Of a stretch of 64,000 bases of DNA, positions 43,777-50,167 are shown in pieces. Made by a program: the position numbers and the translations under genes. Position 1 is the stretch's first letter. Each line of letters starts with the position of its first letter. The notes under the pieces are model-generated. The model was not told the origin of the DNA. It was given only the letters and a program-made list of their open reading frames with translations, and did not search any database. Location: assembly GCA_951813615.1 (NCBI GenBank), contig OX638377.1:2480001-2544000 (forward strand), given 5' to 3'. The DNA comes from an uncultured Latescibacterota bacterium (GTDB lineage: Bacteria > Latescibacterota > UBA2968 > UBA8231).

Positions 43777-46686
43777 TCAACGCAGCAGGATGAGCTTGCG
43801 CGTCAAGGCCGCATCGTCCGTCACCAGTCGATACAGGTACGCGCCGCTGGCTACAGGGTGCCCTGCGGCGTCTCGACCGTCCCAATGGAGCCGGTGGTAG
43901 CCGGCCTGCTGCGGCCCTTGGTGGAGAACCGCGACTCGTTGCCCGGTCAATGCGAATACTTCTAGGCGCGTCAAACTTGGTTCCAGTAGGAAGTACGAAA
44001 GAACGGTCTGGCTGTTGAACGGATTGGGCGCGTTTTGCAGCAATTGGGTTTGGTCGGGTAGAGACGTCCGCTTGCCACTCCCAAAAAGGTCGAAAAAAGC
44101 GGCCAAGGGATCTTCTTCCCCGATAGCGGTAAAGGTCACCGCTGCCAGTCCTTCAACCGTGGCCGTAACCGTATTCGTCCCTGCCTCACTGCCCAGCGTC
44201 AGCGAGGTCGCGGCGCGGCCGTTGGCATTGGTGGTGGCCGTGGCCGACGACAGCGTTCCTTCACCGGCGGTCACCGCAAACGACACGTCCACCCCGGCTA
44301 TCGCCGCACCATCCTCAGCCGACACTAAAACCACAAACGGCTCGGCCAGTTGTTCGCCAGCCGTGCCTTCTTGGTCATCGCCGCAGACCTTCGTCAGCCT
44401 ATGGGGCGTTGCTTGCTCAGCGGCGGTAGCGGTAAAGGTCTCTGGCTCCAGCCCCTCGACCGTGGCCTTGACCGTATTCGTCCCCGGTTCGCCGCCCAAC
44501 GTCAGCCGGACGGAGGCTCGGCCATTGGCATCGGTGTGGCTCGCGATAGACGACGCAGAGGACTCAACAGTACAAGAGTTGGCATTGGTGGCCGATGACA
44601 AAAACCCCCCGCCAGCGGTGACCGAAAAGGCGACGCGCACTCCGAAAACGGGGGAGCCGTCTTGATTGAGCACCGAAACCACAAGTGGCTTGGCCAGTTG
44701 TGTGCTGGCCGACCCTTTCTGGTCATCGCCGGAGACCTTCGTCAGACTATGAGGAATCCCCGGCCCCCAGTCAGATGCATCCCACAGTGAGACCGAACCA
44801 CGAAAATCCAAACCCGTAGACCCGGAGGCGAGCATGGCCCCATCAGGAGAAAATGCCACCGAGCTGACAGCCGCTATATGCCCTTCTAAGGTGGCGATAT
44901 CTTGTCTGCTCGCTACGTCCCATAGCTTAATCGTGCCATGTGGCCCGACGGTGGCGAGCATAGCCCAATCAGGAGAAAACGATACCGGAGGGCCCGCCCC
45001 TTCTAAGGTGGCGATTTTTGTTCTGCTCGCTACGTCCCATAGCTTAATCGGGCCATTCCATGACAAGGCGGCGAGCATGGCCCCATCAGGAGAAAACGAT
45101 ACCGGAGAGCCCTCCTCTTCTAAGGCGGCGATTTTTGTTCTGCTCGCTACGTCCCATAGCTTAATCTCCAGTGACCTGTCAGAGGACTGCCCGTTGGTGG
45201 CGAGCATGGTCCCATCAAGAGAAAATATTACCCAGTGGATATTGTACGTATTGCCCTCCTCTTCTAAGGTGGCGATTTTTGTTCTGCTCGCTACGTCCCA
45301 TAGCTTAATCTCCGGTGATGACACGGAGGTGGTGGCGAGCATGGTCCCATCAAGAGAAAACGATGCTGACCAGACCTTATCATCTGCTAAGGTGGCGATT
45401 TTTGTTCTGCTCGCTACGTCCCATAGCTCAAGCCCTCTTTGGGGAGGAAGAAGGGTGCCCCCAGTATCAGTAGCGGCAAGGAAGGCGAGCATGGTCCCAT
45501 CAGGAGAAAATGTTACCTTTTCGACCTGATTCACATGCTCTGCTAAGGTGGCAATTCGGTGTGGTGATATTTCCACAACCGCAAAGGATATTACGGCCAC
45601 ATTCCCATCCGCATCAACGACATTGACCCAAAGCGAATGCCTAGCAAGATCGGAAAGACTTGAAAAAGGAGACGATGGAATCCTGCCGTCATACTCGAAT
45701 CGAGCAACGGCCTCTTTCTGGCCTGCAAATCCACGGCATTCCAGCACTTCTCGGGATCCGGCGGCGGAGTGTGGTTCTCTTGTTGTGCCGAATAGGAGCA
45801 CCTGATGAAGCCCTCTGGTTCCGCCGACTTCGAGCCCGATAGGCACGCTTGCTGACCCCGGAGGATACAGATACGGCGATTGGCGGGTTGGCCGCGCACT
45901 CTCGCTAGTCGCAATTGAGCTATTGCGATTGAAGTAGGTATGCACAGCCAAGAATTCAGCGTTGCACGCAGATAGCCGATATCGACCCAGCCCTCCGTAC
46001 GACATGATGTAGGTATCATCGCGAAAATCGTGATCTAGACCGAAGGCATGGCCAAGTTCGTGGGCTTCAACGTCGAACGGGTAGGAGTAGAGTTCTTCGG
46101 CAGAAACCAACGCAAATCCACCACTTTTCGACCACCGACTTCCTACCCCTCCCGCAGTCTGACCACCGCCTGTGCCTATTGAGGTTATGCTGTGGTCAAT
46201 GACGATGAGGTAAATGTTTGCCTCGATATCGAACGTCTGTTCAATTTCCTCAAGCACAATGCGGGTCTTATCAAGATAGTAACTATTGGGGTGTCGCCCA
46301 TCGACACGATGCACTTTTGGGGCACCCTGCGCATCGGTTTCAATGCGGAACATTGTGTTGCCATTGCCATGTGCTTGCATCTGCTCGGCATAGAAGTCCT
46401 GAATGCGGACAATCTCATCTTTCATCTTCTGAACCACTTCGGCGCGATACGGACGGTCGTTGGGCAAAAAGTAGATCATCCGCACCGTGCGCTCTTCGCC
46501 GGTGTCCAGAGCCGCCAGCCGCTTGCCTGCAGGCCGAGGGTGCTCCTGCCGCCACTGCTCGTAATCGAACGGCGCACAGAAATGCACTCTGTCGGTCGGC
46601 GGGGGGACAGCATAGGCTACTGACAGCGGCAAGAGAATGAGGCCGAGCAACGCGAGAACGGCGGAATGGCGAACGAGGGTTTTCAT
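43777..46686 (-). CDS. secreted metzincin-type protease with WD40, Ig-like and C-terminal sorting domains
   Basis: A 969-aa secreted protein. A signal peptide (1-26, ending AYA) is followed by a zinc metallopeptidase-like domain to about 240, with HELGHAFGLDHD and the Met-turn YIMSYGG. WD40-type repeats with SFSPDGxMLA and IKLWDVASRTKIATL lie at about 380-620. Two bacterial Ig-like (Big-1) domains follow at about 640-850 (ADANGRA-type SSATNANS, NANGRAATSLTLGSEAGTNTV). The end is a FlgD-like sorting domain (NAPNPFNSQTV ... GAYLYRLVTDD ... LILLR), consistent with export across the outer membrane. A sigma-54-type promoter and 22-bp repeats lie upstream, next to a sigma-54 activator gene. AAGGAA precedes the ATG. 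Confidence 0.85.
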   Translation of the reverse strand: MKTLVRHSAVLALLGLILLPLSVAYAVPPPTDRVHFCAPFDYEQWRQEHPRPAGKRLAALDTGEERTVRMIYFLPNDRPYRAEVVQKMKDEIVRIQDFYAEQMQAHGNGNTMFRIETDAQGAPKVHRVDGRHPNSYYLDKTRIVLEEIEQTFDIEANIYLIVIDHSITSIGTGGGQTAGGVGSRWSKSGGFALVSAEELYSYPFDVEAHELGHAFGLDHDFRDDTYIMSYGGLGRYRLSACNAEFLAVHTYFNRNSSIATSESARPTRQSPYLYPPGSASVPIGLEVGGTRGLHQVLLFGTTREPHSAAGSREVLECRGFAGQKEAVARFEYDGRIPSSPFSSLSDLARHSLWVNVVDADGNVAVISFAVVEISPHRIATLAEHVNQVEKVTFSPDGTMLAFLAATDTGGTLLPPQRGLELWDVASRTKIATLADDKVWSASFSLDGTMLATTSVSSPEIKLWDVASRTKIATLEEEGNTYNIHWVIFSLDGTMLATNGQSSDRSLEIKLWDVASRTKIAALEEEGSPVSFSPDGAMLAALSWNGPIKLWDVASRTKIATLEGAGPPVSFSPDWAMLATVGPHGTIKLWDVASRQDIATLEGHIAAVSSVAFSPDGAMLASGSTGLDFRGSVSLWDASDWGPGIPHSLTKVSGDDQKGSASTQLAKPLVVSVLNQDGSPVFGVRVAFSVTAGGGFLSSATNANSCTVESSASSIASHTDANGRASVRLTLGGEPGTNTVKATVEGLEPETFTATAAEQATPHRLTKVCGDDQEGTAGEQLAEPFVVLVSAEDGAAIAGVDVSFAVTAGEGTLSSATATTNANGRAATSLTLGSEAGTNTVTATVEGLAAVTFTAIGEEDPLAAFFDLFGSGKRTSLPDQTQLLQNAPNPFNSQTVLSYFLLEPSLTRLEVFALTGQRVAVLHQGPQQAGYHRLHWDGRDAAGHPVASGAYLYRLVTDDAALTRKLILLR
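44888..45430 (-). repeat. near-identical DNA repeats in the WD40 region
   Basis: Five copies of a segment of about 45 bases (beginning near 44888, 45005, 45121, 45265 and 45389) share GTTCTGCTCGCTACGTCCCA with hardly a change. Spacing is 116-144 bases, one per WD40 blade. The DNA-level identity, not only protein similarity, points to recent expansion or gene conversion. Confidence 0.8.
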
Positions 46687-46746: not shown

Positions 46747-46762
46747 TGCACATTTCGTACCA
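46747..46762 (-). promoter_or_regulatory. sigma-54-like promoter for the protease gene
   Basis: Minus strand TGGTACGAAATGTGCA: GG and GC are separated by 10 bases as required. Two conserved bases differ from TGGCACG-N4-TTGCA. The start would lie near 46735, about 50 bases before the ATG at 46686. A gene for a sigma-54 activator lies immediately upstream. Confidence 0.55.
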
Positions 46763-46779
46763 GCGACGACAATGCGCAC

Positions 46780-46811
46780 AAAAAAATCCTTTAGGATCAC
46801 CCTAAAGGATT
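46780..46811 (-). terminator. terminator of the propeller/sigma-54 activator gene
   Basis: On the minus strand AATCCTTTAGG and CCTAAAGGATT (11 bp, 5-base loop) are followed by a run of T. It ends the activator transcript just ahead of the protease promoter. Confidence 0.8.
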
Positions 46812-46875: not shown

Positions 46876-46966
46876 TCATTCATACGATTTTTCCGTATCA
46901 TTCATACGATTTTTCCGTATCATTCATACGATTTTTCCGTATCATTCATACGATTTTTCCGTATCA
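46876..46966. repeat. four tandem 22-bp palindromic units
   Basis: Four head-to-tail copies with a strict 22-base period. Each contains the inverted repeat ATACG-N7-CGTAT (starts at 46882, 46904, 46926, 46948) with the same T-rich centre. They lie 120-200 bases upstream of the protease promoter -24 element and 30 bases after the stop of the activator gene. Two-turn spacing on one DNA face is what an enhancer-binding activator needs. Confidence 0.85.
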
Positions 46967-46994: not shown

Positions 46995-49211
46995 TTATGA
47001 CGATTTCTTCGGTCGCTGCAATCCATGTGCACGCATACGGGAACGCAGCCGCTCTGGGTTCATGCCCAACAACTGCGCCGCGCCATACTCTCCATAGATC
47101 CGTCCCTTGGTCGTCTCCAGCGCCGCGATAATCTGCTCCTTTTCGTCCTTGGCCTCGGTATGCTGTCCGACTGGTGGAGCAGACGCCGGCGGCACAAGAG
47201 CCCCTGCTGCTCCCTCATTTTCAGCCGACAGCGGTACATCCGCTACTTCAATAACCTGCTCTCGGCACAGCACCACGGCCTGCTGGATCAAAGACTCCAA
47301 CTCGCGCACATTTCCCGGCCAAGAATGCATCTGTAAGTGCTCCATCACCCCGTCTCCCAGGCTCGGCACCGGCTGTTTCAGCTTTTGGGCCTGCTGACGC
47401 ACAAAATGCCCCACCAGGACCGGAATATCCTCCCGGCGATCCCGCAGGGGCGGCACCACCACGGTGGATACGTTCAAGCGGTAGAATAGATCGGCCCGGA
47501 ACCGCCCCTCCTCAGCTTCCTTTTTCAGGTCGCGGTTGGTCGCCGCAATGATCCGAATATCCACCTTGGTGGACTTATTGCTACCAATTCGTCTCAGATA
47601 GCCCTCGTCCAGCACGTGGAGCAATACCTGTTGGGTTTCTAAGGCCAAATCGCCGATTTCATCGAGGAACAAGGTGCCACCATGCGCCTGTTCAATATAG
47701 CCTGCCCGCTGCGCCACAGCGCCGGTAAAGGCCCCCTGCTCGTGGCCAAACAGTTCGCTTTCGATCAGCTCGGTGGGCAGAGCACCACAATTGAGCGGGA
47801 TAAAGGCGTGCTCTCGGCGTGAGCTCAGAGCGTGGATTTCCCGGGCGATCAGGCCCTTGCCCGTACCCGTCTCGCCCAGCAACAGCACGGTCATATTGGT
47901 CCTGGCCACGGGCTCAACCTGCAACAGAAGCCTGGTTATGGTCGGGCTTTGGCCAGGCACAGCCTGGACCGAGGTCTGCCGCTTATGCTCCGCGCTTTTG
48001 GCAGCGGGGACCACCCGCACCTTCAAGTGGGCTACCTCCGACACCAAGCCATCCCGATCTTGGGTCCGCACCTCAAAGCGATATTCGCCGGCCGGCAAGT
48101 CGTAGTACGACACCTTGTTGTCAAGCGTAAACTCACTCCACTTTGCTGCCGGATTGTGACCAACCAGCCGGTGACTGTAGTGCATCTGCTCTGTCCTCCC
48201 GAGCCCGAAACGGATGCCCTGGAAATGAATCACTATCTCGGGCGCACCCTCTGGACAGGATACGGATTGGGGGGCCTCCAACAGACGCCCCCCCACGACC
48301 TGGCGGATCACGATACCCGGGCGCGTATGGCGGGGCCGGTACCTTATGAGCCCCCCTTCCGTTCCAAACCACAGCCAACCCCGGTGATCGCACAGAATAG
48401 CATTGGCCATATTCTCCGGTCTCAAGGGGCCCAGCCGGATGCTGTGGAAGGTCCGGCCGTTGTAATTCAAGACTCCCTCGCCCTCTAGCCCAATCCACAT
48501 ACTCCCCTTGCTGTCAGCCGCCAGAGATAGAATCCTAATCTTATGAACCGGAAGTCCGTCTTGGGCCTTCATATACTGGCGTACCTGCCTAGAGGCACAG
48601 TCTACGGCAAAAAGCCCATTGGCCGCCCCCACCCAAAGCGTGCCCTCATGCTTCCACAAAGCGTTTACAAAATAAACGGTCTCTAGCCCAGTATAATCCG
48701 GCGCACTCAGATGATCGGCCTTGTCCTTATAGTACAACGCCGGCGTTTCTCTCTGGACACCGATCCATAAGCCCCCTTCGCTATCCGGCATCACGGCTTG
48801 ATACTGCCGGCGGGGCAACCCCTGTGCTAGCGCTACAAAGCGATCTTCTTCGATCCATCCCAAGGTTCCTTGCCCTGTCCAGACCCACAAACGCCCTGCC
48901 TGGTCTTGGCATAGCCCCCCAATGGCTTCGGTGTCTTCCTCTGCGGCCACGGCAATCGTTTGGCGGTCTGTCCCTGCCTTGAATACTTTGCCTTTTTCGC
49001 CTCCAAACCAGAGCGTCCCTTGTCGGTCCACCCCCAGTGCCCAGATCCATAATCCGTCCCGGTCGGGCGAATCCGGTCGTTCTCTAGGCAGGCTAGGCCC
49101 TTTGGTGTGCCAATCCACAGCCGGCCTGCGCCGTCTTCTGCCAAACACCGGATATTCCGATCCGGCAACCCTTCGGCTTCGGTATAGACCTGGAGATGCA
49201 ACGGATCGCAA
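46995..49211 (-). CDS. C-terminal part of split propeller/sigma-54 activator (Y_Y_Y, AAA+, Fis HTH)
   Basis: This is the downstream frame of one gene whose first part is at 48833-50167. Its first about 45 codons are out of register; meaningful sequence begins near 49065 with [20 protein letters not shown]. More propeller repeats follow, then a Y_Y_Y domain ([35 protein letters not shown]). A sigma-54 AAA+ domain comes next: Walker A GETGTGKG (Gly where Glu is usual), [18 protein letters not shown], and WPGNVREL. The C-terminal Fis-type HTH contains [19 protein letters not shown]. There is no transmembrane helix between Y_Y_Y and AAA+, unlike hybrid two-component propeller sensors. It ends 30 bases before the 22-bp repeats. 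Confidence 0.78.
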
Positions 49212-50167
49212 AAGACCAGCCCACGCTCCGCCAATCCCACCCAGATATTTCCTTCGCGGTCCTCATATGTCAGACGCACATTATCTCTAAGGTTGATACC
49301 CGGTGAGCACTCCCAGCAAGTATGCCATTCCTGCTCGTCGTACACCACCAAGCCCCGAGCGCGCGCCACCCACAGCCAGCCTTTATCGTCTATGCGTATA
49401 TGCCGCGCCCCGAACCGCTTGCTCTGCGGCTCCCCAAGCTCAGCACTCAAATCAATCAAGTCGAGCCGTTGGCGTGACGGATCATAGCGGCTGAGCGCGA
49501 CTCTACTTCCACGGCAAAAGGCCGTCCACAGACAGCCAGAGGCGTCTTGGGCGAACTTCCAAGCCCACTGAAACGCGCCGCCCCTATCGTCTAAGCTCAG
49601 GTGCCGACCATCCAAGCTGATGACCCCCCGGTCTTTCGTTGCCAGCCACGTCGTACCCGCCGAGTCGGTGGCCATGTCATATACACGTCCTATGGGCTGG
49701 CCCTCAATGGCCGTCGTGCTTTCTATGCACTGACCCTCGGCGAACAGGCCAAACCCCGCGCTGGTCAGGACCCGTATGGAGCCATCGGCCTGTGGTTGCA
49801 AACCCACGATTTCATTGGATGGCAGCCCGTGCTCGGTCGTGTACACCTGAAATCCCCGCTCATCGAAGGCAGCGAGTCCGCCACCGAACGTACCGAACCA
49901 TAGCCGCCCGTCTTTATCCTCGGCAATAGCCATTACCGTCGGATGGGGCAGCCCGTCCGCCAGGCCAAAGGTCTCGAACCGGCTCCCGTCGAACCGGCTG
50001 ACCCCACCGTCAGCCGTGGCGATCCACACCAGCCCTCGTCGGTCCTGGTAGACATCTTCCACCTGTATCCCGGCTAGCCCATCGGAAATGGTGTACTGGT
50101 ACCCAAGTATAGAACCTGGAAATGCGGTCCCTCTTAGACTCTCCACAGAATCACGCCCATCGTTCAT
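48833..50167 (-). CDS. N-terminal part of split propeller/sigma-54 activator (Reg_prop repeats)
   Basis: Starts at ATG 50167 with AAGGTGA before it. Residues 1 to about 364 are two-component-regulator propeller repeats: [77 protein letters not shown]. No signal peptide is seen. From about 49065 the frame loses the repeat pattern ([15 protein letters not shown]...), while the overlapping frame carries it on. A single one-base shift at about 49050-49085 (a G/C-rich CCCGACCGGGACGG) would join the two into a protein of about 1050 residues. It may be a true frameshift mutation or an assembly error. Confidence 0.72.
   Translation of the reverse strand: MNDGRDSVESLRGTAFPGSILGYQYTISDGLAGIQVEDVYQDRRGLVWIATADGGVSRFDGSRFETFGLADGLPHPTVMAIAEDKDGRLWFGTFGGGLAAFDERGFQVYTTEHGLPSNEIVGLQPQADGSIRVLTSAGFGLFAEGQCIESTTAIEGQPIGRVYDMATDSAGTTWLATKDRGVISLDGRHLSLDDRGGAFQWAWKFAQDASGCLWTAFCRGSRVALSRYDPSRQRLDLIDLSAELGEPQSKRFGARHIRIDDKGWLWVARARGLVVYDEQEWHTCWECSPGINLRDNVRLTYEDREGNIWVGLAERGLVFCDPLHLQVYTEAEGLPDRNIRCLAEDGAGRLWIGTPKGLACLENDRIRPTGTDYGSGHWGWTDKGRSGLEAKKAKYSRQGQTAKRLPWPQRKTPKPLGGYAKTRQGVCGSGQGKEPWDGSKKIAL

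Follow-up and report, generated by a model that had tools for sequence, protein, structure and literature searches.

The tandem array of 22-bp repeats described here very probably serves as upstream activating sequence (enhancer) for the sigma-54 activator whose gene lies beside it on the same strand, a reading drawn from sequence comparisons to which we give a probability of about 0.88. We analyzed a 64-kb window (positions 2480001-2544000) of a chromosome represented by one contig of 6,265,692 bases. On the minus strand, the window presents, in this order, the activator gene (stop at 46995), the array, a hairpin with a T run, a -24/-12 promoter, and the gene of an exported protein (Table 1). 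An earlier, sequence-only reading of this DNA had proposed a multi-site enhancer rather than a random satellite. Our results favor the same interpretation: the letters of such arrays track the recognition helix of the adjacent activator, and relatives with the activator usually keep an array ahead of a sigma-54 promoter.

Table 1. Positions of the array and of the features surrounding it in the window
Feature	Position	Strand	Basis
Activator, N-terminal frame (Reg_prop propeller)	48833..50167	-	Pfam
Activator, C-terminal frame (Reg_prop repeats, Y_Y_Y, sigma-54 AAA+ with GAFTGA, Fis-type HTH)	46995..49211	-	Pfam, ORF list, HTH profile
Tandem array, 4.1 x 22 bp, proposed upstream activating sequence (enhancer)	46876..46966	-	TRF, pattern search, sister arrays in the same place in ~50 modules
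ATACG-N7-CGTAT dyads, one per copy	46882-46898, 46904-46920, 46926-46942, 46948-46964		
Hairpin AATCCTTTAGG-GTGAT-CCTAAAGGATT then T run, proposed terminator of the activator gene	46780..46811	-	Folding, conservation
-24/-12 (sigma-54) promoter TGGTACGAAATGTGCA	46747..46762	-	Exact match to strict pattern
Proposed target gene, 969 aa, predicted exported protein	43777..46686	-	Sequence, Pfam, TIGR04183

The repeat unit of the array is TCATTCATACGATTTTTCCGTA, with a period of 22, 100% matches and neither mismatch nor indel (TRF score of 182), and TRF found no other array of this kind in the window. Each of its dyads spans 17 bp and has an A-tract center. The four tandem, nearly identical units with ATACG-N7-CGTAT symmetry and an exact 22-bp period noted by the sequence-only reading were thus recovered, and its estimate that they lie 120-200 bp upstream of the promoter was close: the array occupies the stretch from 114 to 204 bp upstream of the -24/-12 element (46762-46747, minus strand). 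When one mismatch was allowed, the window contained no ATACG-N7-CGTAT match beyond the four dyads; shuffled windows contained 0.69 on average and reached four in one case out of 100. The 6.27-Mb chromosome contains 11 copies of the motif, the four in the array and seven isolated singles. The sequence-only reading had suggested comparing the motif with promoters genome-wide, and none of these seven copies has a sigma-54-like promoter within 400 bp. Since each of them also falls inside an open frame (129-993 codons), they look like chance matches. The 22-mer of the array had no match in viral contigs.

Between the array and the proposed target, the hairpin folds at -14.2 kcal/mol (z -3.7) and the promoter lies 46 bp past the hairpin start, as in sister modules. 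The genome encodes sigma-54 in one rpoN gene (PF04552, E=5.8e-61). The protein of the proposed target gene starts with a signal peptide-like segment, contains the metalloprotease motif HELGHAFGLDH together with WD40-like and Big_1 domains, and carries a T9SS-type tail at its C terminus (TIGR04183 above cut-off). Its gene also contains a 117-bp tandem repeat (44881-45166, 2.4 copies, 89% match), which corresponds to repeated WD40-like units.

The activator presents a sigma-54 AAA+ domain (PF00158, E=2.7e-67) with the GAFTGA loop, and its HTH matches the profiles of the DNA-binding domains of NtrC4, NtrC1, and Fis, with NPERLRSRM as its helix. The Pfam HTH_8 score of the protein (19.7) is below the cut-off of 22; one paralogue scores above it. 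The gene is divided by a frameshift near 49051-49084, where the tblastn match of an intact relative crosses frames, and the annotated start of the C-terminal frame is not the real gene start. The frameshift is absent from the full-length paralogues, which are intact genes of 1042-1065 codons with the same domains. The window copy may be inactive, or the assembly may be wrong at this place; the genome record gives an estimated contamination of 7%. Reg_prop repeats (PF07494) and Y_Y_Y (PF07495) were found by Pfam in the window activator and its paralogues, and the same scans detected no histidine kinase or receiver domain. None of the six full-length paralogue frames listed contains a 19-residue window above 1.5 on the Kyte-Doolittle scale, and this lack of a membrane-type hydrophobic segment suggests that the activators are probably soluble one-component regulators.

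We found close paralogues of the activator within the genome itself and among relatives from its genus and family, and the layout of array, hairpin, and promoter recurs repeatedly in the DNA 3' of their stops. The hairpin pattern was present in eight of the 11 genomes of the genus and in none of the other genomes searched. Taking every hairpin with a promoter after it in this genome and its relatives, we obtained 54 distinct modules, 53 of which have the promoter 45, 46, or 47 bp past the hairpin start. Their consensus comprises the promoter TGGCACG.AATgTGCa and an A/T-rich block ending TaTgTTTTTCAAT directly before the hairpin. Module arrays typically contain 6-8 half-sites (a rough count), with copy number varying among sisters, and about 65-130 bp (median 81) separate the last half-site from the hairpin. 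In a few modules truncated at a contig end no array is visible, and none was seen after the activator stop in some family members. Loss of the array from relatives that keep the flanking genes, which the sequence-only reading would have held against an enhancer, is not the general picture: relatives with the activator usually retain an array at this position, with a sigma-54 promoter after it. Class-level relatives from more distant families (L049-L066) and a Flavobacteriaceae MAG (L107) often have short palindromes, e.g., GACGTTATAACGTC and CACGATATTTCGTG, and a -24/-12 element after the activator stop, with letters other than those seen here. The arrangement of an activator followed by an upstream activating sequence therefore seems, from these sequences, to extend much wider than the genus.

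The module targets with assignable families are mostly exported and include PD40 propeller, FG-GAP, and AhpC/TSA-type proteins, pilin-like small proteins, and a type IV prepilin peptidase. Such targets agree with the broader association of sigma-54 with the cell exterior (PMC3162934). The pilin-like modules were found in relatives (L045, L089, L158), as was the prepilin peptidase (Peptidase_A24; L086), and part of the regulon may control pili in some of them. Other modules precede a regulatory gene: a full-length propeller activator of 1051 codons in one case (L070, hairpin 3985) and a sensorless AAA+-HTH protein of ~355 aa in two (L039, hairpin 3690; L101, hairpin 1524). This suggests that some modules drive activator genes in regulatory cascades.

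The half-site letters differ from paralogue to paralogue. Using a simple script followed by a check by eye, we assigned them to the classes ATACG, GAACG (some GCACG), CCACG (some CCACA or ACACG), and GAACA. Because ATACG-N7-CGTAT represents a single class among several, a search for the ATACG letter string alone misses the family. We had considered the genome-wide ATACG motif as a family signature, and it failed as such because the letters are paralogue-specific. For the 27 distinct activators that have an array beside them, serine at residue seven of the helix stretch (NPERLRS; LRSR) coincided with T at half-site position 2 (xTACG) in 12 of 12 cases, and tyrosine (LRYR, LRYY) with a base other than T in 15 of 15 (Fisher P=5.8e-8). 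The outer dinucleotide was best informed by residue one of the stretch (N, G, H, or S), with 1.51 bits versus 0.35 when shuffled. Alignment to the NtrC4/NtrC1/Fis profile places the covarying residues on the recognition helix. As a control for shared descent, we built a tree on the AAA+ part with the HTH removed, along which the helix trait and the half-site trait switch five times each. All four independent pairs on supported branches agree, but four are too few for significance (sign test, p=0.125), and the phylogenetic support for covariation is consistent but thin.

Arrays and activators are found apart in several cases. Three modules of this genome have no neighboring activator (1889505, 4330118, and one ~2.4 kb beyond 4330118; L105); all three belong to the CCACG class, as does a single activator of the genome, at 1885007. 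Four relatives (G001, G002, G007, G009) encode a CCACG-class activator without an array of its own and have CCACG arrays elsewhere in their genomes; the missing arrays may reflect assembly collapse. In relatives, the regions upstream of homologues of the window target that lack an activator showed no array, hairpin, or convincing promoter. This indicates that the array is tied to the activator gene and moves with it rather than with the target, and targets vary. One activator with the helix NPERLRSRM (G023) has no downstream array; two ATACG-N7-CGTAT dyads, 77 bp apart, lie near its own gene start (L171, 4863-4956), which hints at autoregulation.

The array, promoter, hairpin, activator domains, conservation of the layout, and covariation were computed, and from them we infer binding, ring assembly, looping, activation, and a signal. 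Fis-type HTH dimers of the activator would bind the 17-bp dyads, the exposed face of the recognition helix contacting the outer bases while the A-tract center would be recognized through its narrow minor groove. With 22 bp amounting to about two turns, the four dyads would lie on one face of the helix and could gather six or more protomers, nucleating the AAA+ ring. The ~115 bp between array and promoter would then loop, such that the GAFTGA loops contact RNA polymerase-sigma54 at TGGTACGAAATGTGCA, and remodeling of the holoenzyme would activate the gene at 43777-46686. Lying between enhancer and promoter, the hairpin would block activator transcripts and insulate the target from read-through.

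This picture of dimers on dyads does not fit all sister arrays because their spacing and orientation differ. Half-sites recur about once per helical turn, either inverted with an alternation of 12/10 or 13/8 bp, or head-to-tail and exactly 11 bp apart (CGTTCAAAAGT repeated). Given that these arrangements occupy the same position, the functional unit might be a half-site once per helical turn rather than the dyad; the activator would then assemble on phased half-sites whatever their orientation, with copy number setting the strength of the enhancer. We regard this version as tentative and rather unlikely, and no described enhancer of a bacterial enhancer-binding protein (bEBP) is known to us to work through rows of one half-site per turn.

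Three other explanations of the array can be weighed against an enhancer of the adjacent activator. Dyads of this size suit many HTH dimers, and the array could be the site of another regulator, for instance one that represses the target, or of a nucleoid protein. We find this very unlikely, given that differences in the letters follow the recognition helix of the neighboring activator and that target homologues lacking the activator have no upstream array. Less probable again is a role of the dyads as RNA, in which hairpins in the 3' untranslated part of the activator mRNA would serve stability, termination, or attenuation. The window array would form the 3' end of the activator transcript and folds well (-24.8 kcal/mol, z -3.7), but sister arrays of head-to-tail half-sites, which occupy the same position, show no such folding (L085, z +0.9; 0.0 kcal/mol for the direct-repeat part alone), and on this ground we rejected an RNA function. 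In addition, a separate conserved terminator follows the array, the letters covary with a helix that reads DNA, and an Rfam scan of the region returned only sub-threshold chance matches and no family above threshold.

Least probable of all is a neutral satellite expanded by slippage. Four identical copies do suggest recent duplication or homogenization, and the variable copy number of sister modules is likewise in its favor. However, the arrays of ~50 modules differ in their letters but lie similarly far from hairpin and promoter (the median of 81 bp separating last half-site and hairpin), their half-sites are kept about one helical turn apart, and their letters covary with the activator.

Upstream activating sequences of sigma-54 activators, including multiple and inverted-repeat ones, are already known (PMC6615313, PMC4641369). 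NorR of E. coli likewise combines an AAA+ and a Fis-type HTH domain and acts from multiple sites upstream of a sigma-54 promoter: its three enhancer sites at norVW are needed as a scaffold for the higher-order oligomer, a need that the four dyads fit (PMC2941729). In contrast, NorR senses nitric oxide with a GAF domain where the activator described here has a propeller and Y_Y_Y, and our sites form a perfect 22-bp tandem at the 3' end of the activator gene with a terminator between array and promoter. The sites reported in Clostridiales (PMC6615313) and Desulfovibrio (PMC4641369) are inverted repeats, commonly with more than one at a promoter and, in Clostridiales, mostly at 100-250 bp upstream, with targets usually beside the activator; the parts of these reports that we consulted mention neither 22-bp tandem arrays, head-to-tail half-sites nor propeller-type activators. 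The PEP-CTERM/PrsR system also places a repeated motif and a sigma-54 promoter ahead of many exported proteins (PMC1569441) but relies on one response regulator and kinase per genome, whereas here there are many one-component activators, each paired with its own class of half-site. Hybrid two-component systems with a Reg_prop propeller (HTCS) share Reg_prop and Y_Y_Y, but their kinase and receiver domains and membrane anchor were not found in our activators.

Residue one of the helix stretch would be the equivalent of Fis Asn84. Fis reads bases with Asn84 and Arg85 and recognizes an A/T center through a narrow minor groove (PMC4784862). Our activators have an HTH of the same family by profile, and their proposed sites likewise have an A/T-rich center flanked by major-groove half-sites. 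The activators differ from Fis by a three-residue insertion before the HTH and by Pro or Ala at the position of Arg85 (register set by eye), so the mode of reading must differ in detail. Our literature search found no description of an activator-array-terminator-promoter cassette, of paralogues with switched letters, of 11-bp head-to-tail arrays, of propeller-type sigma-54 activators, or of half-site covariation within an activator family. The less usual elements here are the cassette layout, the helically phased half-site arrays, some of them head-to-tail, and the repeated switches of specificity.

With more than 50 sister copies whose letters change in step with the recognition helix, this activator family constitutes a natural record of DNA choice by sigma-54 activators. 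It provides dozens of natural activator/enhancer pairs whose frame is nearly constant and whose variation is confined to the recognition helix and the half-site letters. A recognition code for the Fis-type HTHs of sigma-54 activators could be read from these pairs and tested by helix swaps, and the cassettes offer candidate orthogonal activator/promoter pairs. For these uncultured bacteria, our comparisons suggest that many propeller activators lacking a kinase would regulate exported proteins and that, in some relatives, their targets would include pilin-like proteins or a type IV prepilin peptidase.
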